A DNA stretch of 64,000 nt, taken from the NCBI RefSeq assembly GCF_010729665.1, contig NZ_AP022610.1, positions 5,580,001 through 5,644,000 of the forward strand, in the 5' to 3' direction. The position numbers and the translations under genes are program-made. This stretch comes from Mycolicibacterium madagascariense. GTDB lineage: Bacteria > Actinomycetota > Actinomycetes > Mycobacteriales > Mycobacteriaceae. The notes under the pieces are model-generated. The model searched no databases. It worked only from the letters and a program-made list of their open reading frames with translations, and was not told the DNA's origin. Position 1 is the first letter of the stretch. The number at the start of each line of letters is the position of its first letter. This document shows positions 2,016 to 26,458 of the stretch, piece by piece.

Positions 2016-4169
2016 TCACCCGCCGATGGCCTCCGAGGTCAGCACGCCGACGTGCTGCCAGTAGATCCAGTCGGCAATGGCTGCGCGCTGGGCGCTGGGT
2101 TCGACGGCCCGATACGCCGCGTGCAGGGCGTGTTCCTGTGCGTGCGCGGCGTAGGCGACGAACGCCGTGAGGTGGGTGACGCCGCGGGTCGACGCGGTAC
2201 TCATCAAGGGCTTGGCGAGTTCAAACCAGAGCGCGGCGGACCGGTCCGCGGGGGCGCTCTGGTCTACCGGGGCTGGGGGCAGCAGGTGTGACAGCGCCGC
2301 GTCCGCAGTGGCGCTCAGTCGCTCGGCGACCTCGGGGGCGAGCACCTCCAACCGACTGCGGCCCGTCAGCCGTCCCGTCTCCGGGATGTCCGTGGGCTCG
2401 ATGGCGATCGTGCGGACGCCGGGGTCGACGCCGGCGAACTGTTCGACCGTTGCGATCACGGCCGTCAGTCGTTGCTCGTGCGCTCGGGCCCAACCCTGCA
2501 GGGCCCGAATGGGGTACGTCGCCCAAGTGCCGCGTTCGGTCGGCGCGATGGACTCGTCGGCCGACGCCATCGTCACGTGTGGCGGGAGCTCGACGTCGTC
2601 GGGGATGTAGCCGACGCCGTAGCTGTTGGCGACCACGATCGAGCCGTCCGCGGTCACGCCGGTCGCCCAGAAGAAGCCGTAGACGGGTGCGCCCATGTTG
2701 AGGGCGGCGGCGATGCGGCGCGCCCGGATCAGTGCGGCACCGGGATGGTCGGAGCGCCGCAGCCCGGCAGGCATCGCCGCGGACAGCGCCGCGTCGCGCT
2801 GCCGACGCACGGCTGACACCGGCACAGGCGCCAGACCCGTTGTGGCGTCCGGTTTGCCCGCGGCCAGAACGCCGGCACCCGTCACGGTGGCCGGCGGCGG
2901 GCCGACGCCCGCGACGGGAGGAACCGCCGGCGGCGGCGTGAGCGGCATGGGCGGGTTGAGGGGTGGCGGCGGCTGGCTGGTCGACGCTGGCGGGCCACCG
3001 ACGACGCTCGGTGCACTGCTCGCCGCGGTGACGGACTGATGGCGCGCGCTCGCCGTCGCGGCGGTGTCGGTCGGCATGCTCGGGGCGGGCGGGGGCGGTG
3101 CGGTGGGCGCGTTGGTTGCGGTCGTTGAGGTCGTTGAGGTTGGCGCCGTGGGCGGTGCCGACGCGAAATTCTTGGCGAACTGCTCGACGGGCGCCCTCTC
3201 CAGGCCACCGCCGGCGGTGGCCGCCATGGGCGTCGACTTGAGTTCAATCGCAATGGGTTTGGACGTGAGCGTGGTGGACGGCGGGACGGGGGTGGTGGTT
3301 GGCGATGTGTTGATGGCGGTGGGGGTGGGGGTGGGTGGAGCGGGAGTAGGGGTTGGTGGGGGTGCGTACTGCAACTCGTCGCGAGGGAAAGATTCTGAAT
3401 CGCGGCCGTGTAACGTAACCGCCGAAGCCACCTCGGGGGACAAAGGATTGGCGCCTCGGTCCGCGACAAGTTGCTTGGTCGCCCCTCGGGCCGACGTGGC
3501 GACGGAGCGCGCGCAGACGGGCTGAGTAGGCCCACCGAGCTCTGCCACTTTCGGGCTGACGCCACTTCGCGACTCGGTCGAAATCCTGGTTTCAGGACCC
3601 AGAACGCGCCTCAGAACCTTCGACTGGCTCTTCTCATTCACGCCACTTCCGGCAGCGGGGTAGAGGTGTTCGTTTTCAATCGCCTCTCCCACTGCGCTGA
3701 CGACAGCCGAGTTCTCCTTCTGAACCCGATCGATGATCAGACTGATCTGGCGGTCGCGCTGGGTCTGGCTATAAGTGCCGTCCGAGGCAACTCTTTCAAT
3801 TTCACTATCGGCGCCTCGACACAGGTCATAGATCAATCTCTTTGAATCTATGATCAGCTCTCGAACCACGCAATGAAATTTAATTGCAGTGTTCAGTTGA
3901 TCGAACGAGCCCTCGATCCGACCGACTATGTATCGAGAACGCGCGCTTCCGGCCAGTGCTGCATCACCTTCCCAAATATGGTCGTCGTTGATCGCAGCGT
4001 GAGCTTCCTCCCATGAAACCATTGCTGAATAAACATCGGCTAGGACCCGCCGAAGACGGTCGGCTTGGGATGTATGAGCGTCCTCGTCCGCTGACGGCCA
4101 AGCACCGGGGGGCGCCGTCATTCGACTTGTGTAAAGACCGGAGGGCCTCTGAATACTCGTCGCAATCAC
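2016..4169 (-). CDS. espK: ESX-1 secretion-associated protein EspK
   Basis: A 717-residue protein with three parts: an N-terminal helical domain (about residues 1-170), a long Pro/Thr/Ala-rich linker, and a C-terminal domain of about 265 residues with ARRIAAALN, YGFFW, SIVVANSYG and IPETGRLTGRSRLEV as in M. tuberculosis EspK (Rv3879c). EspK binds EspB and acts as its chaperone in ESX-1 export. The GTG at 4169 is chosen because it overlaps the upstream stop as GTGA, and because SIQRPSGLYTSRM directly after it resembles the EspK N-terminus (SITRPTGSY...). The alternative ATG at 4121 would remove that conserved start, and an in-frame start at 4235 would overlap the upstream gene by 70 bases. The N-terminal half is noticeably richer in A+T than the rest of the window. 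Confidence 0.88.
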   Translation of the reverse strand: MIATSIQRPSGLYTSRMTAPPGAWPSADEDAHTSQADRLRRVLADVYSAMVSWEEAHAAINDDHIWEGDAALAGSARSRYIVGRIEGSFDQLNTAIKFHCVVRELIIDSKRLIYDLCRGADSEIERVASDGTYSQTQRDRQISLIIDRVQKENSAVVSAVGEAIENEHLYPAAGSGVNEKSQSKVLRRVLGPETRISTESRSGVSPKVAELGGPTQPVCARSVATSARGATKQLVADRGANPLSPEVASAVTLHGRDSESFPRDELQYAPPPTPTPAPPTPTPTAINTSPTTTPVPPSTTLTSKPIAIELKSTPMAATAGGGLERAPVEQFAKNFASAPPTAPTSTTSTTATNAPTAPPPPAPSMPTDTAATASARHQSVTAASSAPSVVGGPPASTSQPPPPLNPPMPLTPPPAVPPVAGVGPPPATVTGAGVLAAGKPDATTGLAPVPVSAVRRQRDAALSAAMPAGLRRSDHPGAALIRARRIAAALNMGAPVYGFFWATGVTADGSIVVANSYGVGYIPDDVELPPHVTMASADESIAPTERGTWATYPIRALQGWARAHEQRLTAVIATVEQFAGVDPGVRTIAIEPTDIPETGRLTGRSRLEVLAPEVAERLSATADAALSHLLPPAPVDQSAPADRSAALWFELAKPLMSTASTRGVTHLTAFVAYAAHAQEHALHAAYRAVEPSAQRAAIADWIYWQHVGVLTSEAIGG

Positions 4170-5296
4170 CTGCCTGCCGCACTGCAGGCTGCGGAGACAA
4201 GGTTCGCGAACTTGAATGCGACGGAACTCAACCATCCGTCAGCGGCGTCATACTCATCGCCCACAGTGAGATAGGCCATCAAGTAGCGTCCGGTGGAGAA
4301 CGCGAAGTCGCTCAGAACCGGGTTAAAGCTGCGCCTGGCCGCTTCGTCTACCTCGTTTGCGTAGGCCTCGAGAAGAGGCTGGACCGACTGCTCCAGCACC
4401 CTTCTGAGAGGGTTCCACTGTGAAGCCGGTGTTGCCGCGTCGGCAGAAGCCCACAATGCGGTCCGAATATTGAAGTCGTCGAGCCTTTGAATAAACCCGC
4501 TGCACTCAGGATCAGGATCGCTCATGAAAGTGCGTGGAGCGGAGGATTTCTCTGGCTTGGCTACGCCGGACGGCCGAGGCGCCTTCGGAACTGTAATGCC
4601 CCGGCTGGCCGATCCGAACGTGATCGTATTGCAAATCCCGATGACCGCTGAGGCAGCGTTGACGTTAGCGGAAGCGAGCTCATCGTCGATCTGTTCATAA
4701 TCGTAAGTACTGTTGATGTATGCACGCCCGTAAGCACTGAACTGCTCGTATAGCTCTCGGACCACACGGTGAGGCGTCTGCTTAGCGAGCTCGATCGACC
4801 GATCTGCGGCATTCCGCATCGCTCTAACGACGAGATCGATCTCCTCACGTTGCTGTGCGGTCCAGAGGGAGGTTGGCCCCAGCGTTCCTCGCATCTCACC
4901 CCAACCGCCCCTTTCGATTTCGCTCAGCTCGTTGCTTATGCCAACCCAAGCACCACACGTCGGCTCATCCGTAATGATCGACACCGGCCCCGTGTCATTC
5001 GCACTGGCGTAGTCACTGGGCGTACCGGTTGTCAAAGCAGTCGCCCCGCGCCCGCCCTCCCGACCGGTGACGTACAACGTCGCCGCCACGCTCACGCCAA
5101 TCACCACCAGCAGGACCACGGCCATCAGTAGCCACCTTCGGACGCCGCGCCTACGGGTCGGCACGGGCGGCAACGGCCAGGGACCGGGTTGCCAGACTGG
5201 GTCCGACGGACGCGGGGGCCCCGTGGGCGAGTCGCTGCCCTGAGGCGGGCCGGGCCACGGCGGGGGTTGCCCACCGCTGTCAGGCGGTGTACTCAT
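4166..5296 (-). CDS. Unrecognised Pro-rich, single-span membrane protein between espL and espK
   Basis: I do not recognise a named family. The 376-residue protein has a Pro/Gly-rich cytoplasmic N-terminus (residues 1-45), a basic stretch (RRRGVRR), one hydrophobic segment (about residues 54-76, LLMAVVLLVVIGVSVAATLYV) and an exported domain of about 290 residues. Within that domain two similar helical halves may be present, one near TCGAWVGISNELSEIERGGW and one near ECSGFIQRLDDFNIRTALW; both are followed by residues of the type LR.VLEQ / VVRELYEQ and a later cysteine, suggesting an internal duplication with paired cysteines. Upstream is GGAG eight bases before the ATG. The stop forms GTGA with the espK start, so it sits in the espB-espL-espK operon. 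The protein is probably an ESX-1 accessory factor on the outer face of the inner membrane; that is inference from position only. M. tuberculosis has no gene here. Confidence 0.75.
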   Translation of the reverse strand: MSTPPDSGGQPPPWPGPPQGSDSPTGPPRPSDPVWQPGPWPLPPVPTRRRGVRRWLLMAVVLLVVIGVSVAATLYVTGREGGRGATALTTGTPSDYASANDTGPVSIITDEPTCGAWVGISNELSEIERGGWGEMRGTLGPTSLWTAQQREEIDLVVRAMRNAADRSIELAKQTPHRVVRELYEQFSAYGRAYINSTYDYEQIDDELASANVNAASAVIGICNTITFGSASRGITVPKAPRPSGVAKPEKSSAPRTFMSDPDPECSGFIQRLDDFNIRTALWASADAATPASQWNPLRRVLEQSVQPLLEAYANEVDEAARRSFNPVLSDFAFSTGRYLMAYLTVGDEYDAADGWLSSVAFKFANLVSAACSAAGR

Positions 5297-5438
5297 GCGG
5301 CGTCTCCGGCGGCTGCGCGGTCCATTTCTTCACTCCTACAACAGCTTCGAGCCGCATCCGCGGCATCCGGGCTCCCCTTCATCACCCTAGGCGCCCCTCG
5401 CCGCACCCCTTCGCACCAAAATGTCCGCGCAACGGGGA

Positions 5439-5780
5439 CTAGCTGATCACCTCGCGAAGTTCCCGCACCATCTCTGCGACGGTGGTGCCCATGCGCTCTC
5501 GGTCCGCCGCGAGCGACGCCACCGCACGGGCGCCCGCATGATCAAGCGCCTCGTTGATCCGCTCCGCGACCACGTCTGCGCCAAGGCGAAGCAAACCGTC
5601 TTCGATGAAGACGTCGACGAGCCAATGGTGCCCGTTCAGCGTCACCTCGACCGTCTCCGCCTCATCAGTCGCGATGAACGACTCGCCGGCCATCTTGTCC
5701 AGCTGCTCGTCCATCAAGGCCTGGAGCCGTTGGGCGTATCTGAGCACGGCGTCGACACGGGAATGCGGATCGTTCGTCAT
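5439..5780 (-). CDS. espL: ESX-1 accessory protein EspL
   Basis: A 113-residue protein with the EspL (Rv3880c) core: FIATDEAETVEVTLNGHHWL followed by VFIEDGLLRLGADVVAERINEAL. The fold expected is YbaB-like (nucleoid-associated protein family), with helices at both ends and a central beta sheet. In pathogenic mycobacteria EspL stabilises EspE, EspF and EspH and is required for ESX-1 function. The ATG overlaps the espB stop as ATGA, so translation is probably coupled to espB. A 142-base gap follows before the next gene of the operon. Confidence 0.9.
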   Translation of the reverse strand: MTNDPHSRVDAVLRYAQRLQALMDEQLDKMAGESFIATDEAETVEVTLNGHHWLVDVFIEDGLLRLGADVVAERINEALDHAGARAVASLAADRERMGTTVAEMVRELREVIS

Positions 5781-7297
5781 TTCGAGTCCTTGGGGTCCTG
5801 TACGGTCCTGCGTCTGCGCGCACCGATGACTTCCTCGGTGTAGTCCCGGTCCTCGACGTAGAGGGCCTCGTCCGGTGACAGGCCCGGTGTACGTCGCTTC
5901 TCCCGAGCCCCACCCGCACCCTGTCCGTGCATGGGCGCACCTCCGACCCCGCCACCGAGTGGCATCCCGCCCGGGGGAGGCGTCTCGCCCAAGCCCGGGC
6001 TGAGCGGGACCTGCGGGGGTCGTGAGATAGCCGCGGATACGTCACCGAGCCTGTGCGGCGACGGTATCGAGCCGGCGGCCGATCCACCCGAGCCTCCGCC
6101 GCCGCCACCCATTCCGGACTCGGCAGCGGCAGGTCTCACCATCGGTCCTTCGATGGCACCCGCCGAGTCGTCGCGACCGAGGTGGCTCGCCACGTCCCCA
6201 GTCGGCAGTGCACCGGAGGGCGGGCCACCACCCGTCGGAGAGCCCTGTCCTCCCGCGCCCGTGGGGTGTTCCCCGCCAGGCGGTGGCGCGGGCGGGCTCG
6301 TGTCCTTCTGCCGCTGCGGCGACGAACCCCGCACAACGGGTCTTCCCATGCTGCCGGCGACACCGCCTTGGGCGTTCGCCCCAGTTTCCTCGGCACCGCC
6401 GGACGCGGGCGACGGCCGTCGGCCGGTGTTTCCTGCGGCAGGCCCGTCACCCACCGGTGTTGGCGGCTCCAGTCCGGTGATGCGTTGCGGCATGACCGAA
6501 TTCGCATAGTCCGCCCGAATGTGTTCGGACTGATGCTGCAGCTGCTCCATCTGAGTCATGGCGCTCACCTGGTTTCCCAGACCCACGTCGGCCAAGAGCG
6601 TCTCGTACTGCTGGTAGACGGGCGTGTGCGCTCCCGTCGCGGCGAGATGCGCATCGACGATTCGGTGCGCCTCGGCCGCCAGTTGCTGCCAGGCCTGGCC
6701 GAGCTTTGCGAGCCACGCGCCGTACCGAACGAGCTTCTCGTACGCCGCGGTGGCGGCCGCCCCCTCCCAGTGGCGTATCGGTGCCTGCATGCTCGCGGCA
6801 GCCTCCCCCAGGCGCACGCCATTGGCGTACCACGCGGCAGCCGCCGTTTGCAGCGAGACGCCATGGTCCCCGTCGGACAGTCGCTGCTGAGCCACGTCGA
6901 CGTGCAGGGCCTCCTCCCCCGGAGGGAGACCCGCCGCTTCGGGGGACGGGGGTGCCATGGGCTCAGGTATCGAGCCGCTCTCCGGGACGACGGGTTCCGG
7001 CGGTGGACCGGTGCCGTCGAGACTCCTCTTCGCTCCCTCGTCGACCCGGTCGTAGGCGTCGGCGACCGATCTCAGCGTCTCGGCCAGACGGAATGCCTCG
7101 ACCTGCCCGTACGCCTGGTTGGCCACGAGGTAGTCGGCGTCCAGGCGGAGCAATGCGACCGCAGCATGCGTGCTGGCCAGGGCGTCCGGGGGCCGCAGAT
7201 CGGGAACGAGCGTCTCGGCGTCGCCGAGCTCCACGTTCGCAACCTCACTGGCCCGGGTGCGCAGATCTTCCGTATCGACGTCGATGCCGCCGCCCAT
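5777..7297 (-). CDS. espB: ESX-1 secreted protein EspB
   Basis: A 506-residue EspB homologue. The N-terminal part is a fused PE/PPE-like helical bundle: secretion motif YxxxD at Y82-D86 (YDRVD) and a WxG turn at 177-179 (WEG). Residues beyond about 290 are low-complexity Pro/Gly/Ala, ending in DEALYVEDRDYTEEVIGARRRR, which closely matches the C-terminus of M. tuberculosis EspB, where MycP1 cleaves the tail. EspB forms heptameric rings and binds phospholipid. The ATG at 7297 was chosen because AGGAGG lies eight bases before it; the open frame continues far upstream inside eccE1 but only as out-of-frame shadow sequence. The stop overlaps the espL start. Confidence 0.92.
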   Translation of the reverse strand: MGGGIDVDTEDLRTRASEVANVELGDAETLVPDLRPPDALASTHAAVALLRLDADYLVANQAYGQVEAFRLAETLRSVADAYDRVDEGAKRSLDGTGPPPEPVVPESGSIPEPMAPPSPEAAGLPPGEEALHVDVAQQRLSDGDHGVSLQTAAAAWYANGVRLGEAAASMQAPIRHWEGAAATAAYEKLVRYGAWLAKLGQAWQQLAAEAHRIVDAHLAATGAHTPVYQQYETLLADVGLGNQVSAMTQMEQLQHQSEHIRADYANSVMPQRITGLEPPTPVGDGPAAGNTGRRPSPASGGAEETGANAQGGVAGSMGRPVVRGSSPQRQKDTSPPAPPPGGEHPTGAGGQGSPTGGGPPSGALPTGDVASHLGRDDSAGAIEGPMVRPAAAESGMGGGGGGSGGSAAGSIPSPHRLGDVSAAISRPPQVPLSPGLGETPPPGGMPLGGGVGGAPMHGQGAGGAREKRRTPGLSPDEALYVEDRDYTEEVIGARRRRTVQDPKDSK

Positions 7298-7305
7298 CCG
7301 TCCTC

Positions 7306-8715
7306 CTATGGCTCCGCGTGTGCGAGTGTCATCTGGTAGCGGCTCTCTTCGCGCGGAGTGACCAACCGGATCGGCAGCCGCCGATGACGTGGGGTCTCGA
7401 TGTGGCCGTCCCGCAACGTCACTCGACTGATGTCCGGACGCGTCCCGAGGTACGTGGTCGACCGGGGCCACGCGATCGATGGGTCGGTGCCGATCCGGGC
7501 GTTGATGGAGCCGGCGAAGTCGGCGAACTGCGGGCCGAGGGTTACGACGGCGCCTGCGGCAGCCGACCTCACCACGAACTGGGTGAACAGCCGCGCATCG
7601 TCCCCGAGTTCGATGCACGAGTCGACGTCGTCGAACGGTAGGTAGACCGGGCACCGGTTGGCCGTCTCGCCCACCAGGACGCCCGCCGATCCGATCGGAA
7701 GTTCGAAGTGGCGGCCGGCCGTGGGACAGTCCCCACTCAGCGCGGCTCGTTGCCCGCCGTGCAGACACGAAAACCCCTGTGGCGTGGACGGACTGGTGGA
7801 CGTGGTGAGCAGTACCGTCGCCCTGGGCGCCTGCCCCGCACGGATCCGCACCCTCGTCACGACGTGATCCGACCGTGCCGACCACCACGCGTCGGGTCCT
7901 CCCGCGGCGGTGTATGCGGTCGTGAACGATCCCCGTCCCCTCACGTACGACCATGCCTCGCGGTGGAAGTCGATGCCGGTGGCACGGTCGAATTCCTCGA
8001 AACCGTCGGCACACCGCGCATCGACCCCCGAGCTCGCCAGGTGGTCGGCGAGCCGGGTCGCCGACGCGACCAGATAGCGGGCCACCCCGGCCACACCGGT
8101 GTCGCGCCGCAGCGCCCATCTGCGCGCTTCGTCGGGATGGGCGCGCACCACGATCCAGGTGCGGCGGTGGGCGGGGGCCGGTGCCGGACCGACCACCTGT
8201 TCGTAGAGCGCGACGAGGCCTGGCGGCGCAACCCGACCGACCCGATACCCGGCAGACACGACGTCGGCATCGAGGCCTGGGCAGAAGGTCGCGACGATGC
8301 GCTGCACCAGCTCGGTGTTCACCACGTCATCGGTGCGCGCCGCGCCGGCGACGATCACCGTTGGCGTGAACGGCCGCGCCACGAGCTCGACGAGGGCCAC
8401 GAGACGGTCCCCCTGCCAACGCACCGCGACGCGGTCACCCGGCCGCACCGTCGTGCCGATCGAGGGCTCCGACGCCGCGGCCGGGGGTTCACCGCGGCGC
8501 CGCCGCCAGGCGACGACGGCCGCGATCCAGGCGGTCGCGCGTCGACCACGCACCGTGAACGTGATTGCCAATGAACCGATTACGACCGACGTGACCGCCA
8601 GCCAGCTCAGGTGCCGGTCGACGAGGACGACCACCAGCCCGGGGAGTACCGCGGCCGCCGAGGCGAGGTGGCCCGTCGTGACGCGGACGCCGAAGGACGG
8701 CCGAGGGTCGGTCAT
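7306..8715 (-). CDS. eccE1: ESX-1 membrane component EccE1
   Basis: A 469-residue protein with two N-terminal membrane segments (about residues 18-35 and 39-56), then a basic stretch and a large cytosolic domain, the EccE architecture. EccE sits at the outer edge of the EccB-C-D-E inner-membrane complex of type VII systems. Motifs include RTWIVVRAHPDEARRW and GFSCLHGGQ. The ATG at 8715 overlaps the mycP1 stop as ATGA; a longer frame upstream lies inside mycP1. Eight bases separate its stop from the espB start, so mycP1-eccE1-espB-espL form one tightly packed operon. Confidence 0.92.
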   Translation of the reverse strand: MTDPRPSFGVRVTTGHLASAAAVLPGLVVVLVDRHLSWLAVTSVVIGSLAITFTVRGRRATAWIAAVVAWRRRRGEPPAAASEPSIGTTVRPGDRVAVRWQGDRLVALVELVARPFTPTVIVAGAARTDDVVNTELVQRIVATFCPGLDADVVSAGYRVGRVAPPGLVALYEQVVGPAPAPAHRRTWIVVRAHPDEARRWALRRDTGVAGVARYLVASATRLADHLASSGVDARCADGFEEFDRATGIDFHREAWSYVRGRGSFTTAYTAAGGPDAWWSARSDHVVTRVRIRAGQAPRATVLLTTSTSPSTPQGFSCLHGGQRAALSGDCPTAGRHFELPIGSAGVLVGETANRCPVYLPFDDVDSCIELGDDARLFTQFVVRSAAAGAVVTLGPQFADFAGSINARIGTDPSIAWPRSTTYLGTRPDISRVTLRDGHIETPRHRRLPIRLVTPREESRYQMTLAHAEP

Positions 8716-10085
8716 CGACGTCTCAGGGCGCGACGGGCCAGCGCGGCGACGGCGAGCGCGATGGCAAGGCTCGAGCCGATGACGACGACCGTCGTGATCG
8801 GGCCGCGGTCCGGCGGGGTGACGACCACCGGAGGCGGAAGCCGTCGCACCCCGTAGGACACGGTCGCGGGACCGGGCGGGACGTCCCACGTCAACGCGGC
8901 GACGGGGTCGATCACCCCGGCGCCGACGGCGTCGTTAGTGCCGCCTCCGGGATGTCGGGCCGTCGCGGTGATTCGATATCTGATCTGTGCGGGCGTCAGG
9001 CCGGGGAAGCGTTGGCGCAGCAGCGCCGCCAGACCCGAGACGTAGGCCGCGGCGAACGACGTGCCGTTCATCGGAACCGGCCCCTCTTCGCCCTGCAGGG
9101 CGTTCATCGGGTTGCCGCCGCCGCCCAGCGCGACGACGCTCTCGGCGGGTGCGGCGACGTCGACCCACGGTCCGGACATCGAGATGCTGCTCGGCTGACC
9201 GGTCTGCCCGATTCCGCCGACGGTGAGCACCAGCGGCGAGTACCAGGCCGGCGAGACGACGGTCTCCACCCGCTGCCAGCCCCGCGGGTCCAACGGAGCC
9301 GATGCGTCCGGCGGGGGGTTCTGGCCGCAGTCCCCCGCCGCGTTGCCCGCGGCGACGACGATCACCGAACCCCTTGCAGTGACGGCATATTCGATGGCGG
9401 CGCCCAGACTCCTCTCGTCGATCGGCTTGGTGCTCTTGTAGCAGGCCGCCTCGCTGATGTTGATGACCTGGGCGCCCAGGTTGGCGGCATGCACGACGGC
9501 CCTCGCGAGGCTGCGCAACGAACCGGCCGTCGGCGTCGCGTTGGGGTCATCGAGGTCTCTCGGAGCACCGACGGATCGAAAGTGATCCGAGGTCTGTCGC
9601 AACGACAGCAATCTCGCGTCCGGCGCGACCCCGACGAAGGCATCGGTCGGTGCTGATCTACCGGCGATGATCGACGCGGTCAGCGTGCCGTGACCGTCGC
9701 AGTCGGACATCCCGTCACCGGCCGCGTCGACGAAGTCACCTCCGGGCAGCGCGGGTACCCGGCCAGATCCGTTCACCCCGGTGTCGATGACCGCGACGGT
9801 GACGCCCGCCCCAGTGGCGAACTTCTGGGCGTCGCCGATCCGCAGGTACTCACTGGGCCAGGGCGGGTCGGCGAAGGACGCCCCGGGGAAGCTCAGCGGC
9901 GCGGTGCAGCCACCGCCGAACTGCATCGGCTGATCCGGGCCCGTGTGATCGGGTGGCAGCGCCGATCGATCGATGACCGGTGGTTCGACGGCAAACCCGG
10001 GAGGAGCACTCGGCAGCGCGAGGCATAGCACGACCAGTGCCAGGGCGAGCGCACGCCCGCAGCGAGCCGATCGTGGCACCGACAT
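8712..10085 (-). CDS. mycP1: Mycosin-1, membrane-anchored subtilisin-like protease
   Basis: A 457-residue S8 protease with a signal peptide (residues 1-32), catalytic Asp101 (VAVIDTGVNGSG), His132 (DGHGT) and Ser343 (NGTSFAAAYVSG), and a C-terminal transmembrane helix (about 422-445) followed by RRALRRR. Mycosins stabilise the ESX membrane complex, and MycP1 processes EspB. The ATG at 10085 gives a normal signal peptide; a start 19 codons upstream would place an Arg-rich extension before it. Two cysteine pairs typical of mycosins are visible (C60, C129/C215). It is the first gene of the operon running to espK; the 194 bases upstream separate it from ptsH on the same strand. Confidence 0.93.
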   Translation of the reverse strand: MSVPRSARCGRALALALVVLCLALPSAPPGFAVEPPVIDRSALPPDHTGPDQPMQFGGGCTAPLSFPGASFADPPWPSEYLRIGDAQKFATGAGVTVAVIDTGVNGSGRVPALPGGDFVDAAGDGMSDCDGHGTLTASIIAGRSAPTDAFVGVAPDARLLSLRQTSDHFRSVGAPRDLDDPNATPTAGSLRSLARAVVHAANLGAQVINISEAACYKSTKPIDERSLGAAIEYAVTARGSVIVVAAGNAAGDCGQNPPPDASAPLDPRGWQRVETVVSPAWYSPLVLTVGGIGQTGQPSSISMSGPWVDVAAPAESVVALGGGGNPMNALQGEEGPVPMNGTSFAAAYVSGLAALLRQRFPGLTPAQIRYRITATARHPGGGTNDAVGAGVIDPVAALTWDVPPGPATVSYGVRRLPPPVVVTPPDRGPITTVVVIGSSLAIALAVAALARRALRRR

Positions 10086-10279
10086 GTGCCGAGGACCGGG
10101 GCGCCGCGTCAATCTCGTTGCGCGCCCGCCGCATTCCCTCACGTGGAGCCCTCGACCTCGTGCACGCAGGCAATGCTACGGGCGCCCCGCATGCCATCCG
10201 CGCACCAAAAATCAGCGCGGGGGAGGCGCCGTCAGCGTCTCCCCCGGCTCGCGTGCGCGTGTGCCTACCGAGGCCCTAC

Positions 10280-10537
10280 TTAGGCGTCGAGATCCTGCTG
10301 GACGAGCCCGGCGACGGTGTCGAGGGCCGACTCGTCGTCCGACGCGACGGTCACCTGCGCGCCGTTCTCGGCGCCCAGCGTCATGATCATCAGCGCCGAA
10401 CCGGCGTCGACCGGCTCACCGCCGTCGAGGGACAGGGTCACCGGCACTCCGGCGTTGACGACGGCCTCGGCGATGATGGCGGCGGGTCGGGCGTGCAGGC
10501 CGATCGACGAACCGACGATGACGGTCTTGGCGGGCAT
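10280..10537 (-). CDS. ptsH: Phosphocarrier protein HPr
   Basis: An 85-residue HPr. The phospho-accepting histidine is in GLHARPA (His15), and a serine in the position of regulatory Ser46 is present (GSALMIMTLGA). HPr carries phosphate from enzyme I (PtsI) to the EIIA domain of the fructose transporter. AAGGAGAG lies nine bases before the ATG. It is the last gene of the fruR-fruK-fruA-ptsH operon, 31 bases after fruA. The Ser46-kinase HprK is generally absent in mycobacteria, so regulation through that serine is doubtful. Confidence 0.95.
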   Translation of the reverse strand: MPAKTVIVGSSIGLHARPAAIIAEAVVNAGVPVTLSLDGGEPVDAGSALMIMTLGAENGAQVTVASDDESALDTVAGLVQQDLDA

Positions 10538-10568
10538 GGTCTCTCCTTTGGTGGTGGTGTACGGGATG

Positions 10569-12572
10569 TCAGGCGGCGACGAGCTCGGGGGTGGAATCCG
10601 CGTCGGCCTTGGTCTTGGCGAATTGCTTGGCGGCGACGACCGCGACCGCACCGACGATGGTGCCTGCGGCCAGGGCGACGAGGAACCAGATCAGGTTGCC
10701 GATCGCGAAGAAGACGAAGATCCCGCCGTGGGGTGCCTTGAGGGTGACGTCGAACGCCATGATCAGCGCACCGGTCACCGCGCCACCGGCCATCATCGAC
10801 GGGATGACGCGCAGCGGGTCGGCCGCCGCGAACGGTATCGCCCCCTCCGAGATGAACGAGGCTCCGAGAAGCCATGCAGCGCGGCCATTCTCGCGCTCGG
10901 GCTCGGTGAAGAGACCGGGTCGGACGGTGGAGGCCAGCGCCATCGCCAACGGCGGGACCATGCCCGCGGCCATCACGGCGGCCATGATGCGTAGCGACGA
11001 CGGATCGGCGACGTTGAGGCCTGCGGTCGCAAAGGCGTACGCCGCCTTGTTGACCGGCCCGCCGAGGTCGAAGCACATCATCAGGCCGAGGATGATTCCG
11101 AGGAAGATGACCGAGCTGCCGGACAATCCGCTGAGCCAATGCGTCAGACCGGACGTGATCGCGGCGAGCGGACGGCCGAGCAGCAGGAACATCAGCAACC
11201 CGACGACCAGCGATGCGACGAGCGGGATGATCACGACGGGCATCAGGCCCCGCAGCCAGCGTGGGACGTCGATCCGGCTGATCCACAAGGCGGTGAAGCC
11301 CGCGATGAGTCCGCCGACGATGCCGCCGATGAACCCGCCACCGACGAAGACCGCCACCGCACCGGCGGTGAAACCCGGTGCGATGCCTGGCCGATCGGCG
11401 ATCGCGAAGGAGATGTAGCCCGCGAGCGCCGGGACGAGGAACGAGAACGCCAGGCCGCCGAGCGTGAAGAGCACGGCACCGAGGTACTGGGACAGTCCGC
11501 CGCTGGGCAGGTTCGTCAGCGAGTTGCCCGCGGCGATGATGTTGCCCAGCGATTGCGTCCCGCCGTCGGGCTTGTTGGCGATGTCGTAGCCGGCGAGCAG
11601 GAAGCCGAGGGCGATCAGCAGACCGCCGGCGGCCACGAACGGGATCATGTAGCTCACGCCGGTGAGCAGGATCTGCCGGGTGCGGGTGCCCCAGCCGACG
11701 CCGCCCGAGGCGGACGGAGCCGACGCGGCCGCGGCTCCACCGGCGGCGCCCTCGACCTTCGCGGAGTTCGGATCATCTGCGGCGGCAAGGGCTTCGGCGA
11801 CCATCTTGTCGGGTTCGTTGATCGCACGCTTGACGCCGGAGGCGATGACGGGCTTGCCCGCGAACCGGCCGCGGTCCTTGACCCCGACGTCGGTGGCGAA
11901 GATGACGGCGGCGGCCTTGGCGATCGTCTCGGCGGGCAGGGGTGTGCTACCCGAGGAGCCCTGGGTCTCGACCTGCAGGTCGACACCGGCCTTCTTGCCC
12001 GCGGCAACCAGGGAGTCCGCGGCCATGTAGGTGTGCGCAATGCCCGTGGGACAGGCCGTGATTGCGACGATCGTCCGGGTCTGGGCCGGGGGCGCGGCGG
12101 CTGCCGCGGGCGCCGCAGCAGGAGCCGGATTGACGACGCTCTCGACCAGGTCGACGACCTCGGCGGCCGAGCCTGCGCTGCGCAGCGATGCGACGAAGTC
12201 CTTGCGCACCAACGCCCGTGCGAGGCTCGACAGCAGCTTCATGTGCTCGGCGCCACCGGAGTCGGGCGCGGCGATCAGGAACGCGAGATCGGCCGGACCG
12301 TCGGGCGCGCCGAAGTCGACGGGGGGTGACAGCCGGGCGAACCCGATGGTCGGCTGGTCGACGAACGGCGAACGGCAGTGCGGGATGGCGATGCCGCCGG
12401 GAAGTCCGGTGGCGGACTGCGCCTCGCGCGCCATCGCGGCGCCGACGAGGCCGGCTCCGTCGGAGGATCGTCCGGCATCGGCGAGACGTGCGGCGAGCAG
12501 GCCGATCACGGCCTCCTTGTCGCCGCCTGCGTCGACGTCGATGGCGACGAGGTCGGTGGTGATGATGGACAT
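10569..12572 (-). CDS. fruA: Fructose PTS permease, EIIABC fusion
   Basis: A 667-residue fusion in the order IIA-IIB-IIC. IIA spans residues 1-145 with phospho-His65 (GIAIPHCRSP). A Pro/Ala-rich linker follows. IIB spans about 165-270 with phospho-Cys174 (ITACPTGIAHTYMAA). IIC spans about 310-650 and is a multi-span membrane domain (GVSYMIPFVAAGGLLIALGF, ISEGAIPFAAADP). It takes up fructose and releases fructose 1-phosphate into the cell. AGAGGAAGAG precedes the ATG. It lies between fruK and ptsH, so substrate uptake, phosphorylation and carrier genes are together. Confidence 0.96.
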   Translation of the reverse strand: MSIITTDLVAIDVDAGGDKEAVIGLLAARLADAGRSSDGAGLVGAAMAREAQSATGLPGGIAIPHCRSPFVDQPTIGFARLSPPVDFGAPDGPADLAFLIAAPDSGGAEHMKLLSSLARALVRKDFVASLRSAGSAAEVVDLVESVVNPAPAAAPAAAAAPPAQTRTIVAITACPTGIAHTYMAADSLVAAGKKAGVDLQVETQGSSGSTPLPAETIAKAAAVIFATDVGVKDRGRFAGKPVIASGVKRAINEPDKMVAEALAAADDPNSAKVEGAAGGAAAASAPSASGGVGWGTRTRQILLTGVSYMIPFVAAGGLLIALGFLLAGYDIANKPDGGTQSLGNIIAAGNSLTNLPSGGLSQYLGAVLFTLGGLAFSFLVPALAGYISFAIADRPGIAPGFTAGAVAVFVGGGFIGGIVGGLIAGFTALWISRIDVPRWLRGLMPVVIIPLVASLVVGLLMFLLLGRPLAAITSGLTHWLSGLSGSSVIFLGIILGLMMCFDLGGPVNKAAYAFATAGLNVADPSSLRIMAAVMAAGMVPPLAMALASTVRPGLFTEPERENGRAAWLLGASFISEGAIPFAAADPLRVIPSMMAGGAVTGALIMAFDVTLKAPHGGIFVFFAIGNLIWFLVALAAGTIVGAVAVVAAKQFAKTKADADSTPELVAA

Positions 12573-12592
12573 GGTTCTCTTCCTCTGGTGGG

Positions 12593-13570
12593 TTACGGAC
12601 GGGTGGGTGCGGGTGTAATGGCATGCACCCGAACGGCATTCAGATCGATTTGCGAGGGCGCGGGTAGTGCGGAGCCGGGCAGCGCGGCCGCCGCGCTGCC
12701 GTAGGCGACCGCCATCTGCAGCCGTCGCGGCGGCTCGGCCCCGCCGACGGCGGCGCGGAGGTAACCCGCCAACGCGGAGTCGCCCGCGCCGACGGTGCTG
12801 CGCGGCGAGATGGGCGGCGGGGCGGCCCACCAGCTGCCAGACGGGTCGACGAGTACCGCACCAGCGGCGCCGAGCGTGACGAGCACGGTCCTGATGCCGC
12901 GTTCGACGAGTTGGCTCGCGGCCGCTACCACCGGTGTCGGATCACCCTCGGCGGCAGCCACTTCCAGTTCGGCTGGCGATGCGCCGACCAGACCGGCGAG
13001 CTCCTCGGCGTTGGGTTTGATGACGTCGGGTGCGGCGTCGCCGAACGCTGCCGCGAGCGCGTCGAGCGGGCGCTCGGAGGTGTCGACCGCCACCCGACAC
13101 GGCGCAGTGGCCAATTGCGCGACGACGTCGGCGTACCAACGGTCGGGCACGCCGGGCGGCAGCGATCCGGAAAGGACGATCCACGAGGCGGTTTCGGCGT
13201 ACTCGAGCACCGTCCGGGTGAGGGCCTGCAGCGCCGACGCGTCGAGTGGAGCGCCGGGTTCGTTGAGCTTGGTCGTGGTGCCGTCGGCCTCGGTGATCGT
13301 GAGGTTGGTGCGCACGGCCCCGCCGGACGGCACCGTGCGGTAGGCGACGCCCGCCGCGCTCAGCGCCACCAGCATGGGGTCGGCCTCCCCCGCGGGGAGG
13401 ACGGCGACGGTGTCGACGCCGGCGAGCGCCAATGCCCGAGCGACGTTGACGCCCTTGCCACCTGGCTCACCGGTGGCGGAGGTGACGCGGTGCACGGCCC
13501 CGCGGACCAGCGGGGTACCCAGGGCAACCGTTCTGTCGATGCTGGGGTTCGGCGTGACGGTGACGATCAT
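12593..13570 (-). CDS. fruK: 1-phosphofructokinase
   Basis: A 325-residue PfkB-family sugar kinase. It begins MIVTVTPNPSIDRTV, has the first PfkB signature EPGGKGVNVARALA, and the second signature STVGAGDSALAGYL with the catalytic aspartate. In this operon it would convert fructose 1-phosphate made by FruA into fructose 1,6-bisphosphate. The ATG overlaps the fruR stop (ATGA). Twenty bases separate it from fruA. A tagatose-6-phosphate kinase cannot be excluded from motifs alone, but the fruA context argues for FruK. Confidence 0.94.
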   Translation of the reverse strand: MIVTVTPNPSIDRTVALGTPLVRGAVHRVTSATGEPGGKGVNVARALALAGVDTVAVLPAGEADPMLVALSAAGVAYRTVPSGGAVRTNLTITEADGTTTKLNEPGAPLDASALQALTRTVLEYAETASWIVLSGSLPPGVPDRWYADVVAQLATAPCRVAVDTSERPLDALAAAFGDAAPDVIKPNAEELAGLVGASPAELEVAAAEGDPTPVVAAASQLVERGIRTVLVTLGAAGAVLVDPSGSWWAAPPPISPRSTVGAGDSALAGYLRAAVGGAEPPRRLQMAVAYGSAAAALPGSALPAPSQIDLNAVRVHAITPAPTRP

Positions 13571-14441: not shown

Positions 14442-14448
14442 GGTTCAC

Positions 14449-20174: not shown

Positions 20175-21846
<1,672 letters not shown>

Positions 21847-21913
21847 AGCCCTGTTCCCCAACCGGGTGGTTGGTTAGAGTCGTTTCTGTTCCTCGGGTCA
21901 GGAAGGACTCCCC

Positions 21914-23320
21914 GTGACCACAGAAGCCACCGCTCCGCCCAGCTCGGCAGCCCCCGCCGCAGACATCCCCGCGATCGTCGCCCGTCTGCGCAAGACCTTC
22001 AGCACCGGACGTACCCGTGACGTCGCGTGGCGCAAGCGCCAATTGGAGGCCCTCGAGCGGCTGCTCGTCGACAACGAGCCGGCGATCGCCGCCGCTCTCG
22101 AGAAGGACCTCGGGCGCCAGCCGTTCGAGGCGTGGCTGGCCGACATCGCTAGCACCGCGGGAGAGGCGGCCGACGCCGCGAAGAACGTCGGCAAGTGGAC
22201 CAAGCGCAAACACCAGTGGCTAGAGTTCGCGCAGCTGCCCGGCCGCGGCTGGGTCGAGTACGAGCCCAACGGCACGGTGCTCATCATCGGCGCGTGGAAC
22301 TTCCCGTTCGCACTCACGCTCGGCCCCGCGGTCGGGGCGATCGCGGCGGGCAACGCCGTCCTGCTCAAGCCCTCCGAGGTGGCGCCCGCCTCGTCGGCGC
22401 TGATGGCCGAACTGGTGCCGCGCTACCTCGATCCGGACGCGATCGCCGTCGTCGAGGGTGACGGCGCGGTCAGCCAGGAACTCATCGCGCAGGGCTTCGA
22501 CCGGCTCTGCTTCACGGGCGGCACGGAGATCGGCCGCAAGGTGTACGAGAGCGCGGCGGCCCACCTCACCCCCGTCACCCTCGAGCTGGGTGGCAAGAGC
22601 CCGGTCATCGTCGCCGCCGACGCCGACGTCGCGGTCGCCGCCAAGCGGATCGCCTGGACCAAGCTCATCAACTCCGGACAGATCTGCATCGCCCCCGACT
22701 ACGTCCTCGCCGACGCGACCGTGCGCGACGAGCTCGTCGCCAAGATCGGCGAGGCCGTTGCCACCTTCGAGGCGGGCAACTCCGGCAAGCGCATCGTCAA
22801 CGAGCGGCACTTCGATCGGCTGACCACCGCGCTGGCGGCCACCAAGGGCACCGTCGCCGTCGGCGGCGGCTCGAATGCGGCTGCGGTCGAGATCGATCCG
22901 ACCGTCGTCGTCGACCCGGCGCTCGACGAACCGCTGATGACCGACGAGATCTTCGGTCCGATCCTGCCCATCGTCACGGTCCAATCCCTGGACGAGGCAA
23001 TCGATTTCGTGAACGCCCGGCCCAAACCGCTGGCGGCGTACCTGTTCACCAAGAGCAAGGGCGTGCGGGAACGGGTCATCAAGGAGGTGTCCTCGGGCGG
23101 CATGCTCGTCAACCACCTCCTGTTCCAATTCTCGACGACGAAGCTGCCGTTCGGCGGCGTCGGACCGTCCGGGATGGGTGCCTATCACGGCAGATTCGGC
23201 TTCGAGGAGTTCAGCCACCGCAAGTCGGTGCTGACCAAGCCGACCCGACCCGACTTAACCGCCATCATCTACCCGCCGTATACAGAGAAGGCGTGGAAGC
23301 TGGCCCGCAGGCTCTTCTGA
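21914..23320 (+). CDS. Aldehyde dehydrogenase (Rv0147-like)
   Basis: A 468-residue NAD(P)-dependent aldehyde dehydrogenase of the class 3 / fatty aldehyde type, without an N-terminal extension. It shows the cofactor region IIGAWNFPFALTLGP, FTGGTEIGRKV, the general-base glutamate in LELGGKSPVIV, and the catalytic cysteine in NSGQICIAPDYVL. The C-terminus VLTKPTRPDLTAIIYPPYTEKAWKLARRLF resembles membrane-associating fatty aldehyde dehydrogenases. The GTG start follows AGGAAGG by seven bases. It oxidises aldehydes to acids; the natural substrate is unknown. Confidence 0.92.
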   Translation: MTTEATAPPSSAAPAADIPAIVARLRKTFSTGRTRDVAWRKRQLEALERLLVDNEPAIAAALEKDLGRQPFEAWLADIASTAGEAADAAKNVGKWTKRKHQWLEFAQLPGRGWVEYEPNGTVLIIGAWNFPFALTLGPAVGAIAAGNAVLLKPSEVAPASSALMAELVPRYLDPDAIAVVEGDGAVSQELIAQGFDRLCFTGGTEIGRKVYESAAAHLTPVTLELGGKSPVIVAADADVAVAAKRIAWTKLINSGQICIAPDYVLADATVRDELVAKIGEAVATFEAGNSGKRIVNERHFDRLTTALAATKGTVAVGGGSNAAAVEIDPTVVVDPALDEPLMTDEIFGPILPIVTVQSLDEAIDFVNARPKPLAAYLFTKSKGVRERVIKEVSSGGMLVNHLLFQFSTTKLPFGGVGPSGMGAYHGRFGFEEFSHRKSVLTKPTRPDLTAIIYPPYTEKAWKLARRLF

Positions 23321-23360
23321 CCCAGCTCCACCTCACCGCCCATCGAGAGATTGGAAGCCA

Positions 23361-24224
23361 ATGCCCGGAGTGCAGGATCGCGTCATCGTCGTCACCGGAG
23401 CCGGTGGTGGGCTGGGTCGTGAATACGCCCTGACCCTCGCCCGCGAGGGTGCCAGCGTCGTCGTCAACGACCTCGGCGGAGCACGTGACGGGTCGGGCGC
23501 CGGGTCCGCGATGGCCGACCAGGTGGTCGACGAGATCAAGCAGGCCGGCGGGCGCGCCGTCGCCAACTACGACAGCGTCGCCGAGCCCGAGGGCGCCGAG
23601 AACATCATCAAGACCGCACTGGACGAGTTCGGGGCCGTGCACGGCGTGGTCAGCAACGCCGGCATCCTGCGCGACGGCACGTTCCACAAGATGACGTTCG
23701 AGAACTGGGACGCCGTGCTGAAGGTGCACCTCTACGGCGGTTACAACGTGCTGCGCGCCGCGTGGCCGCACTTCCGCGAGCAGAGCTTCGGCCGCGTCGT
23801 GGTCGCGACGTCGACCAGCGGCTTGTTCGGCAACTTCGGGCAGGCCAACTACGGCGCCGCCAAGCTCGGCCTGGTGGGCCTGATCAACACGCTGGCGCAG
23901 GAGGGCGCCAAGTACGACATCAAGGCCAACGCCGTCGCGCCGATCGCGGCCACCCGCATGACGCAGGACATCCTGCCGCCCGAGGTGTTCGAGAAGCTCA
24001 CGCCCGAATACGTGGCTCCCGTCGTGGCCTACCTGTGCACCGAGGAGGTGCCCGACACCGACTCCATCTTCATCGTCGGCGGCGGCAAGGTGCAGCGCAC
24101 CGCGCTGTTCCAGAACGACGGCGTGACGTTCGAGAAGGTGCCCACCGTCGACGACGTCGCGGGCAAGTGGGGCGAGATCACCGACCTGTCCGCAGCCCAG
24201 GCAGCCAGCTTCAAGCTCGGCTGA
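23361..24224 (+). CDS. Short-chain dehydrogenase, HSD17B4-like (Rv0148-like)
   Basis: A 287-residue SDR. The Rossmann motif is TGAGGGLGREYAL, followed by VVNDLGGARDGSG as in the 3-hydroxyacyl-CoA dehydrogenase part of peroxisomal multifunctional enzyme 2. The catalytic Ser-Tyr-Lys set is STSGLFGNFGQANYGAAK. The C-terminus has DSIFIVGGGKVQRTALFQNDG. Such enzymes oxidise (3R)-hydroxyacyl-CoA. It begins 40 bases after the aldehyde dehydrogenase and ends four bases before the next start, so it is part of the same operon. Confidence 0.92.
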   Translation: MPGVQDRVIVVTGAGGGLGREYALTLAREGASVVVNDLGGARDGSGAGSAMADQVVDEIKQAGGRAVANYDSVAEPEGAENIIKTALDEFGAVHGVVSNAGILRDGTFHKMTFENWDAVLKVHLYGGYNVLRAAWPHFREQSFGRVVVATSTSGLFGNFGQANYGAAKLGLVGLINTLAQEGAKYDIKANAVAPIAATRMTQDILPPEVFEKLTPEYVAPVVAYLCTEEVPDTDSIFIVGGGKVQRTALFQNDGVTFEKVPTVDDVAGKWGEITDLSAAQAASFKLG

Positions 24225-24228
24225 CCCC

Positions 24229-25194
24229 GTGAAGGCGCTTGTCGCGCAAAGCCTTTCCGGGCCGGAGGGTCTGGCCTACACCGACGTCGACGAGCCGGCC
24301 GGCGATGGCATGGTCGTCGTCGACGTCGGTGCGGCCGGGGTCGCCTTCCCCGATCTGCTGCTGCTCAAGGGCGAGTACCAACTCAAGCTCGATCCGCCGT
24401 TCATCCCCGGCACCGAGGTCGCCGGCATCGTGCGATCGGCGCCGGAGGGCTCGGGTTTCAGTGTTGGTCGACGGGTCACGGGGCTGAGCATGCTGGGCGC
24501 CTGGGCGCAGCGGGTGGCCCTGGCCCCGGACCGCGTGCTGCCGACGCCGGACGACATCGACGACGGCGCGGCGGTCGCCTTGCTCGGCAACTATTACACG
24601 ATGTATTTCGGCCTGGTCCGACGCGGCGGACTCCGCAGCGGGGAGACCGTGCTGGTGCTCGGGTCGGCCGGTGGTGTCGGCACGGCCGCCATCCAGATCG
24701 CCAAGGCGTTGGGCGCCAGGGTGATTGCGATGGTGCACCGGCCGGACGCCAACGACTTCGTCGAATCACTCGGCGCCGACGTCGTGCTGCCGCTCAGTGA
24801 CGGATGGGCCCAGGCGGTGCGCGACGCCACCGACGGCCGCGGTGTCGACCTCGTCGTCGACCCGATCGGGGGCGCGGCCTTCGACGACGCGATCCGCGTC
24901 CTCGCCACCGAGGGCAGGCTGCTGGTGATCGGCTTCGCCTCGGGCGGCGGCATACCGTCGGTCAAGGTGAACCGGCTGCTGCTCCGCAACGTCAGCGTGG
25001 TCGGTGTCGGTCTCGGCGAGTTCATCAACCGCACCCCCGGCGCGCAGGCCGAGATCGGTGCCGGGCTGAGCGCACTCGTCGACGCAGGCCTGCGGCCGCC
25101 GCCACCCGTGCGCTATTCGCTGGCCGACGGAAGGGCGGCGTTGGAGAGCTTGGCGAGCGGTGGAATCAAGGGAAAGGTCGTGTTGGTGCCGTGA
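24229..25194 (+). CDS. NADPH:quinone oxidoreductase-type MDR protein (Rv0149-like)
   Basis: A 321-residue medium-chain reductase without zinc ligands. It has the GroES-like N-terminal domain (PPFIPGTEVAGIVRSAPEG) and the Rossmann motif VLVLGSAGGVGTAAIQIAKALGA. This family reduces quinones or enoyl-type substrates with NADPH. The GTG start lies four bases after the SDR stop. Its stop TGA opens the first copy of a 32-base tandem repeat. Gene order with the SDR and aldehyde dehydrogenase matches Rv0147-Rv0149. Confidence 0.9.
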   Translation: MKALVAQSLSGPEGLAYTDVDEPAGDGMVVVDVGAAGVAFPDLLLLKGEYQLKLDPPFIPGTEVAGIVRSAPEGSGFSVGRRVTGLSMLGAWAQRVALAPDRVLPTPDDIDDGAAVALLGNYYTMYFGLVRRGGLRSGETVLVLGSAGGVGTAAIQIAKALGARVIAMVHRPDANDFVESLGADVVLPLSDGWAQAVRDATDGRGVDLVVDPIGGAAFDDAIRVLATEGRLLVIGFASGGGIPSVKVNRLLLRNVSVVGVGLGEFINRTPGAQAEIGAGLSALVDAGLRPPPPVRYSLADGRAALESLASGGIKGKVVLVP

Positions 25195-25255
25195 CGAGCG
25201 CTTGCGCGAGGAACCGAAGACTATGACGAGCGCTTGCGCGAGGAACCGAAGACTA
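25192..25255 (+). repeat. 32-base perfect tandem duplication spanning a translation start
   Basis: Two identical 32-base units, 25192-25223 and 25224-25255, abut each other. Each contains GAGCGCTTGCGCGAGGAACC, a GAGGAA ribosome-site-like stretch, and ends just before an ATG. In the first copy the ATG (25223) opens an 11-codon frame that stops at 25256-25258; in the second copy the ATG (25255) starts the HAD gene. The duplication has therefore doubled the ribosome site and start of the HAD gene. It looks recent, because the copies are identical. Confidence 0.9.
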
Positions 25256-25962
25256 TGACCGCACCAAAAGCGTTGGCGTTCGACGTCTTTGGGACCGTCG
25301 TGGACTGGCGCAGCAGCATCATCGGCGAGCTCGAGATGTTCGGTGAGCGCCACGGCATCGCGGAGGACTGGGCGGCGTTCGCCGACGCCTGGCGGGCCGG
25401 CTATCCGAAGGCGATGGACCGGGTCCGCACCGGGGACTTGCCGTGGCTGAAGATCGACGCGCTGCACCGTCTGATCCTCGACGATCTGCTCGACGGGGTG
25501 GGCATCGGGGACGTGCCCGACGCCGACGTCGCCGACCTCAACCTGGCGTGGCACCGGCTGGATCCGTGGCCGGATTCGGTGGCCGGGCTGACCCAGCTCA
25601 AGCGGCGGTTCACCATCACGACGCTGTCCAACGGCAACCTGTCACTGCTGACCGACATGGCCAAACGTGCTGGGCTGCCGTGGGATTGCGTGATCTCCGC
25701 CGAACTGTTTCACCATTACAAGCCCGATCGCGAGGCGTACCTCGGCTGCGCCGATCTCCTCGACGTCGCGCCGGGCGAGCTGATGCTGGTGGCCGCGCAC
25801 CCCAGTGATCTGCGGGCCGCCCGCGACGCCGGCCTGATGACGGGGTACGTCGCGCGGCCGCTGGAACGTGGGCCGGGACATCCGCCGCCGCGGGTCGAGG
25901 ATGGCGAGTTCGACGTCGTCGCGGGAGATTTCTTAGAACTGGCTGACAAACTGGGGGCGTGA
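25255..25962 (+). CDS. HAD hydrolase, haloacid dehalogenase type II
   Basis: A 235-residue HAD protein. Motif I is FDVFGTVVDW with the nucleophile Asp, motif II TLSNGN, the lysine lies in HHYKPDREAYLG, and motif IV-like residues in VAAHPSDLRAARDAG. Residues follow the L-2-haloacid dehalogenase pattern, in which halide is displaced by the Asp nucleophile; phosphatase activity is also possible. The ATG at 25255 is chosen over a TTG at 25234 because it fits the family start and directly follows GAGGAA in the second repeat unit. The stop overlaps the next start (GTGA). Confidence 0.88.
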   Translation: MTAPKALAFDVFGTVVDWRSSIIGELEMFGERHGIAEDWAAFADAWRAGYPKAMDRVRTGDLPWLKIDALHRLILDDLLDGVGIGDVPDADVADLNLAWHRLDPWPDSVAGLTQLKRRFTITTLSNGNLSLLTDMAKRAGLPWDCVISAELFHHYKPDREAYLGCADLLDVAPGELMLVAAHPSDLRAARDAGLMTGYVARPLERGPGHPPPRVEDGEFDVVAGDFLELADKLGA

Positions 25963-26441
25963 CCTCCGTCGGCACCGTGCTCGTCGCGATCGTGATCGCG
26001 ATCGGGCTGATCGGCATCCTGCTGCCACTCATTCCGGGCAGCATCCTGGTGTTCGGTGCGATCGGTGTATGGGCGTACCTCGTGGGGACGATGACGGCCT
26101 GGGTGGCGTTCGGCGTCGCCACCGCGATCCTGCTCGCCGCCCTGCTGATCAAGTACCTCTGGCCGATGAAGCGCATGCGCAACGCCGACGTCGGCACCTG
26201 GACTCTGCTGGTCGGCGGACTGTTCGGCGTCATTGGGTTCTTCGTCGTCCCCGTCCTCGGTCTGGTGCTGGGGTTCGTCCTGGGCGTGTACGTCGCGGAG
26301 TTGGCGCTCCGCAAGAACAATCGGCTGGCGTGGGCCTCGACCGTGCACGCCATCAAGGGCGTGGCGCTGTCGGTCGGCGTCGAGATGGCCGGCGCCCTGC
26401 TGGCGACGCTGGTGTGGGTGGCCGGAGTCCTCGCGAGCTAA
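25959..26441 (+). CDS. DUF456-family membrane protein
   Basis: A 160-residue protein with about five hydrophobic segments (near residues 5-33, 38-64, 81-110, and two toward the C-terminus) and the glycine-rich pattern GLIGILLPLIPGSILVFGAIGVWA seen in DUF456. Function is unknown. The GTG start overlaps the HAD stop, so it ends this operon. Its stop lies 17 bases from the stop of the espJ-like gene, and this short gap is the right edge of the proposed inversion. Confidence 0.8.
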   Translation: MTSVGTVLVAIVIAIGLIGILLPLIPGSILVFGAIGVWAYLVGTMTAWVAFGVATAILLAALLIKYLWPMKRMRNADVGTWTLLVGGLFGVIGFFVVPVLGLVLGFVLGVYVAELALRKNNRLAWASTVHAIKGVALSVGVEMAGALLATLVWVAGVLAS

Positions 26442-26458
26442 CGTTCCGCTCGTGCGGG

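Follow-up and report, generated by a model that had tools for sequence, protein, structure and literature searches.

The ESX-1 secretion locus of Mycolicibacterium madagascariense lies in two pieces, and one inversion of approximately positions 2,016-26,441 of the stretch analysed here accounts for this order. The window, as we call the whole stretch of 64,000 nucleotides (G000:C1:5,580,001-5,644,000), comes from a genome of 5.94 Mb in 2 contigs that is 99.94% complete. From left to right it carries fadE2, ptpB and an EthD-like gene, the ESX-1 genes espK to mycP1 (2.0-10.1 kb), a fructose phosphotransferase system (PTS), a block running from tetR to DUF456 (to 26.44 kb) and the ESX-1 genes espJ to espG1 (to 40.6 kb). 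Gene identities were taken from a profile search of the window (NCBIfam and Pfam), to which motif and neighbour evidence was added. As a preliminary description of the window had claimed, both halves of ESX-1 are on the minus strand; the 16.6 kb between them hold the PTS and genes resembling Rv0144-Rv0149. In Mycobacterium tuberculosis, ESX-1 is ordered espG1-eccA1...eccD1-espJ / espK-espL-espB-eccE1-mycP1. The window has the same genes in the same order within each half and its core motifs are intact, but its halves are codirectional and separated, and espJ is cut. ESX-1 and Rv0144-Rv0154 are far apart in M. tuberculosis, so relatives in which both regions adjoin are the right comparison. Very probably, an ancestor underwent a two-break inversion with loss of sequence at the espJ/espK seam, and this state was inherited with the core genes kept.

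The ptpB region was fetched from 20 relatives, picked for long contigs out of the 37 other genomes that matched PtpB best. In all 20, the DUF456-to-tetR block stood beside ptpB in the orientation opposite to that found in the window (some genes being absent in some genomes). With ptpB set to the plus strand, mycP1 was also on the plus strand in 14 relatives, and the other 6 showed no mycP1 in the stretch. A plus-strand espK faced a minus-strand espJ in 5/20, at a distance of <=0.5 kb in G035, G334 and G136 and of 4.7 and 6.1 kb in G255 and G330. For the other 15, espK or espJ was absent from the stretch, eccD1 lay beyond it (G195, G304, G389) or there was no eccD1 match; the EccD1 search gave none at E <= 1e-130 in G151, G158, G148, G354 and G203. 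The ptpB-to-mycP1 stretch was kept in G158 (L026-L027) and G151 (L022-L023), and MycP1 of G158 was partial (residues 30-237), as if most of ESX-1 had been lost. In the window itself, espK does not directly face a full-length espJ beside eccD1, which is the arrangement of a canonical contiguous ESX-1.

Genus-wide searches covered 396 genomes, with matches in 247/396 and 202/396, of which ~150 were listed each time. Pairing drew on 149 DUF456, 129 EccD1 and 65 PtpB matches; 20 further EccD1 matches, none from a genome represented in the DUF456 set, were left out. Among the matches listed, DUF456 and eccD1 shared a contig in 70 genomes. In 66/66 of those with the two genes within 100 kb they shared a strand, at distances of 11.4 to 63 kb; the remaining four pairs were separated by 123 kb to 1.2 Mb, and in two of these the strands differed. 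In the window the two genes are ~350 bp apart on opposite strands. DUF456 and ptpB were on opposite strands and <=3.7 kb apart in 62 of the 63 listed relatives with both on one contig (one of 64 pairs was split over two contigs), the exception being G006 at 283 kb; in the window, ptpB is 24 kb from DUF456 and on its strand. None of 104 other genomes among the matches listed had the geometry of the window, with eccD1 and mycP1 on the same strand and <40 kb apart. The relatives share the opposite order, so the window order is derived. The preliminary description had proposed that 2,016-26,441 is inverted and that this one event explains both broken gene blocks, and the 20 fetched relatives and 66 same-strand pairs bore this out; it had also allowed that the closest relatives might share the order of the window, and the 20 fetched relatives have the opposite one.

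Turning the segment back, as had been suggested, would not bring back the old order in full, since the espJ/espK seam lacks ~0.4-0.5 kb. EspJ has 103 residues in the window vs 222-277 in 8/8 relatives where it was found (loci L009-L077); it keeps the PE/EspC-like helical domain and lacks the Gly/Met/Pro-rich tail of ~120-170 residues. The full-length EspJ of G035 (251 residues) matched the genome of the window once at E <= 0.01, with residues 3-99 at 26,474-26,767. The tail was found nowhere in the genome at this threshold, in a search not fully sensitive to so low-complexity a sequence, and is absent beside espK or espJ. EspK ends ~4 residues short of its counterparts in 10/10 relatives among the matches listed. 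The espJ and espK stops of G035 are 9 bp apart, and this spacing together with the shortening of both proteins gives the size of the loss. Breakpoints had been placed at 1,967-2,015 and 26,442-26,458. Both sites are roughly right; the right interval was too narrow, as espJ is cut and homology ends at 26,474, and the left one reaches the last espK codons (~1,968-2,027). Likewise, the ESX-1 genes described as intact are so for the core, but the accessory espJ is not whole.

At the other junction, DUF456 and EthD look whole. EthD orthologs 75-87% identical to that of the window adjoin DUF456 in 17 relatives among the matches listed, at distances ranging from 16 to 2,151 bp, so no loss can be claimed on this side. 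The lineage of the window might have lost a gene from this interval, but such a loss is not supported, as G066 and G111 have gaps of 16 and 111 bp, respectively. In G035, a DUF3060 gene of 381 residues (L019:17427-18572) stands between the two, and the genome of the window gives weak partial matches only.

The junctions measure ~60 bp (left) and ~35 bp (right). A repeat search of the genome found no repeat covering either junction, and the longest inverted match between them was 7 bp, a length reached or exceeded in 482/1000 random site pairs of the window. A weak inverted pair of 33 nt, 73% complementary, occurs near the junctions and not at them (1575-1607 / 27328-27360; among the best 25 of 67 pairs), and no recombinase was found among the identified neighbouring genes. 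Inversion mediated by insertion sequence (IS) copies or inverted repeats at both junctions is disfavoured, as there is no junction repeat above chance. What is seen instead is lost sequence at the seam and no extended homology, the pattern of end joining with deletion. We propose that the chromosome of the ancestor broke twice, in the DUF456-EthD interval and at the seam of ESX-1, and that the ends rejoined in the wrong orientation, which would have inverted ~24.4 kb and removed the tail of espJ, the short gap between espJ and espK and a few final codons of espK. The route was likely non-homologous or short-homology end joining. The inverted state would then have been inherited in the lineage, leaving an EspJ made of the helical domain only, and an EthD gene behind the mycP1-to-espK genes and away from its old neighbours. 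Judging from the core motifs kept, two separate and now codirectional gene clusters probably still encode a complete core machine.

The 103-residue EspJ was searched against 5.8 billion proteins, with length limits that exclude full-length EspJ. Three results were returned: the cluster of the window itself (4 members, 2 contigs), P0002 and P0003. P0002 (111 residues, 71% identical, JGI) lies on a contig of 5,158 nt and ends within ~10 residues of the end of the window EspJ. P0003 (106 residues, 64% identical, JGI) comes from a contig of 4,576 nt with no partner contig among the matches listed. A DUF456 search gave P0014 (88% identical) as its top JGI result, its contig likewise measuring 5,158 nt (best 120 of 2,233 results). 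By equal length, source and rank, P0002 and P0014 are apparently on one contig, which would put espJ no more than ~5.2 kb from DUF456 in an independent organism. This matches the inverted order, DUF456 and eccD1 being at least 11.4 kb apart elsewhere. The inversion is thus probably a lineage-level trait and not an artefact of assembly.

These results bear on three other explanations of the order. The preliminary description had left lineage- or strain-specific rearrangement and assembly error both open, and the metagenomic EspJ and DUF456 favour the former. The window order is known from a single genome without reads, so that contig ends might have been misjoined with no inversion in the cell; this is very improbable, as there is no repeat at which to misjoin, a simple misjoin would not give the loss of espJ/espK sequence found nowhere else, espJ and DUF456 apparently share a contig in an independent metagenome, and the assembly is nearly complete in its two contigs. 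Flipping of the segment by an IS element or a site-specific recombinase, a common cause of inversions in bacteria, is very unlikely too: the junctions leave no room for an IS, their inverted matches do not exceed chance and the neighbouring genes identified include no recombinase. It is extremely unlikely that the window kept the ancestral order and that the inversion took place in its relatives. In the EccD1 tree the window groups with G066, G035, G334 and G136 (99 support); the last three are convergent, as are 100/104 genomes at any distance, so that a single change on the branch of the window is the simplest account, and the cut EspJ at the junction marks the state of the window as derived.

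A further possibility is that the inversion is a by-product of ESX-1 disuse, relaxed selection having let the locus break and espJ erode. Evolutionary rate was measured as distance to outgroups relative to that of close relatives, and of 30 genes 27 could be used, the other 3 having an insufficient number of orthologs. The median was 1.57 for 12 ESX-1 genes vs 1.07 for 15 other genes, 13 of them inside the inverted segment (Mann-Whitney p = 0.010); some values come from two relatives or a single outgroup, and linkage makes the genes non-independent. ESX-1 values included eccE1 (2.96), mycP1 (2.06), espL (2.00), eccCa1 (1.85) and eccD1 (1.79), and the end branch of the window EccD1, which groups with G066, G035, G334 and G136, was 0.86 vs a median of 0.076. 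The rate change seems to follow the ESX-1 system and not chromosomal place. Relaxed selection, adaptation or replacement are possible causes. Fast change and the long EccD1 branch are what disuse would predict, but we consider disuse doubtful: the core open reading frames (ORFs) and catalytic motifs are intact, esxA (0.81) and esxB (0.98) are not faster, and adaptive change or gene replacement could also lengthen the branch. As its core motifs are intact, a working or recently working ESX-1 appears likelier than a dead one.

Several points weigh against an inherited inversion with loss at the seam. The low complexity of the espJ tail weakens the search for it, the loss in espJ may have come before or after the inversion, and, given the range of DUF456-EthD gaps, a gene may also have been lost there. 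The co-location of P0002 and P0014 is deduced from equal length and source, and the ends of P0002 and P0003 may be contig edges. A test of the age of the inversion by GC skew at third positions showed the expected trend with p = 0.18.

Split ESX-1 loci are recurrent in the genus and not unique to the window. The eccD1-mycP1 survey used 149 EccD1 and 149 MycP1 matches; 134 genomes had both, and exclusion of 30 with the genes on two contigs left the 104 genomes given above. The two genes were convergent at <40 kb in 80 genomes, convergent at >=40 kb in 20 and on a common strand, separated by 243 kb to 1.2 Mb, in 4. Taking >=40 kb as split, 24/104 other genomes among the matches listed are split, at distances of 52 kb to 1.2 Mb. 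As in the window, their eccA1-eccD1 and espL-mycP1 modules are apart; unlike the codirectional short-range state of the window, 20 of the 24 are convergent. The window is the only short-range inversion among the genomes examined. On an EccD1 tree of 81 sequences, obtained by a quick search from the window and 80 others hand-picked from the 149 (all 24 split plus 56), with two sequences lacking a state and a long branch leading to the window, the split state requires five changes (the window, G195, G182, G373 and one clade of 21), three of them forced by strongly supported branches.

In 11 split genomes, the surroundings of both halves (stretches of 12-20 kb, E <= 1e-4) were examined. Neither espJ nor espK was detected near either half in seven of them (G101, G220, G300, G231, G078, G373 and G341). 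G145 and G277 kept espK together with an espJ-like gene beside eccD1, G182 had espJ/espK-like genes at both halves, and G195 had espJ beside eccD1 and two espK-like copies on the mycP1 side. The chances seem to us about even that ESX-1 consists of two separable modules and that the espJ-espK-espL stretch is a recurrent, tolerated break point, with at least three independent splits (five on the best tree), often accompanied by damage to or loss of espJ/espK, the window being a short-range case in which most ESX-1 proteins have evolved unusually fast since. Samples from the clade of 21 carry an acyl-CoA dehydrogenase ~30% like fadE2 near eccD1 (L041, L044, L169, L170, L174, L175).

In other ESX loci, eccE and mycP are codirectional with eccD; if that order holds, the event in the window by chance restored the eccD polarity of those loci. 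In ESX-1, eccE and mycP are usually inverted (PMC4791881); that older inversion turned the same module relative to eccD1, and the event in the window turned it back together with ~16 kb of other genes. Excerpts of two studies report ESX-1 without espJ/espK in rapid growers (PMC6917791, PMC8217490), a loss at the same seam as in the window; these excerpts list absent genes and describe no split or inversion. Another study reports that EspJ is found mainly in slow growers and carries a phosphorylation at Ser70 (PMC4521147). Literature searches, including for EspJ, brought up no report of a split or inverted ESX-1 in titles or abstract openings. The usual view of ESX-1 is that of a single locus that has to be whole for secretion. 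Against a background of repeated independent splits, a natural and probably inherited local split with an intact core and a trimmed EspJ raises the questions of which genes need to remain linked and whether ESX-1 can do without espJ and espK. Searches that demand clustered genes will miscall ESX-1 as incomplete in split genomes.

Table 1. Genes and junctions of the window, with positions counted from its first nucleotide.
Feature	Position	Strand	Evidence	Location and remarks
fadE2-like acyl-CoA dehydrogenase, part inside window	14..787	+	Pfam	Left flank, not inverted; strand and position with respect to ptpB conserved in relatives
ptpB tyrosine phosphatase	787..1623	+	Pfam Y_phosphatase3	Left flank
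EthD-like gene	1646..1981 (ATG start at 1967 likelier)	-	Pfam EthD, slightly below cutoff	Left flank; espK now lies directly upstream
Left inversion junction, espK 3' end / EthD upstream	1968..2027		EspK C terminus diverges here from relatives	Junction sequence
espK-like	2016..4235	-	Homology to relatives and position	Inverted segment; C terminus ~4 residues short; start uncertain
Proline-rich 376-residue protein between espL and espK	4166-5296		No Pfam or NCBIfam match	One membrane segment by eye
espL, YbaB fold	5439..5780	-	Pfam and position	Inverted segment
espB	5777..8119	-	EspB_PE and EspB_PPE	Inverted segment; ORF over-extended, true start inside it
eccE1	7306..8889	-	TIGR03923	Inverted segment
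mycP1 mycosin	8712..10142	-	TIGR03921 and motifs	Inverted segment; D/H/S motifs present
Fructose PTS: HPr-like, fruA, pfkB, ptsI	10280..16149	-, -, -, +	Profiles; HPr from position and conservation alone	Inverted segment
tetR, LCM, ALDH, SDR, QOR, HAD, DUF456	20175..26441	+	Pfam	Inverted segment
DUF456	25959-26441	+	Pfam	
Right inversion junction, DUF456 3' end / cut espJ	26442..26476		Full-length EspJ query matches up to 26,474 only	
espJ, 103 residues	26459..26770	-	Position and relatives, without named profile; Pfam PE and EspC barely above cutoff	
eccD1	26787..28427	-	TIGR03920	Right flank, not inverted
espI, esxA, esxB, ppe, pe35, eccCb1, eccCa1, eccB1, eccA1, espG1	28301..40561	-	Profiles and ATPase motifs	Right flank
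pe35, 98-residue ORF at the pe35 place	31588..31884	-	ORF list alone	Overlaps an over-extended 543-residue PPE ORF in another frame
espG1	39539-40561	-	Pfam EspG	

The core ESX-1 components in the window scored above NCBIfam cutoffs, their assignment to the ESX-1 paralogs resting on their neighbours. WXG100, PPE, EspG and EspB domains were matched in window proteins, Walker A motifs are present in the ATPases and the triad in the mycosin; the EspI N-terminal domain reached 27.1 bits, under the 30-bit cutoff. EspK had no profile match in the NCBIfam and Pfam searches of the window; the database cluster of EspK carries PF27215, and a version of 606 residues is present in the database. Homologs of the proline-rich protein, 34-45% identical, occur at the same place in relatives, with two copies in G195, G304 and G330. 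A 32-bp unit is repeated 2.1 times with 100% match at 25192-25259, spanning the QOR end and the HAD start. The genome holds further related copies, among them an array at C1:4,218,818-4,219,266, and we take the unit to resemble the short interspersed repeats of mycobacteria.

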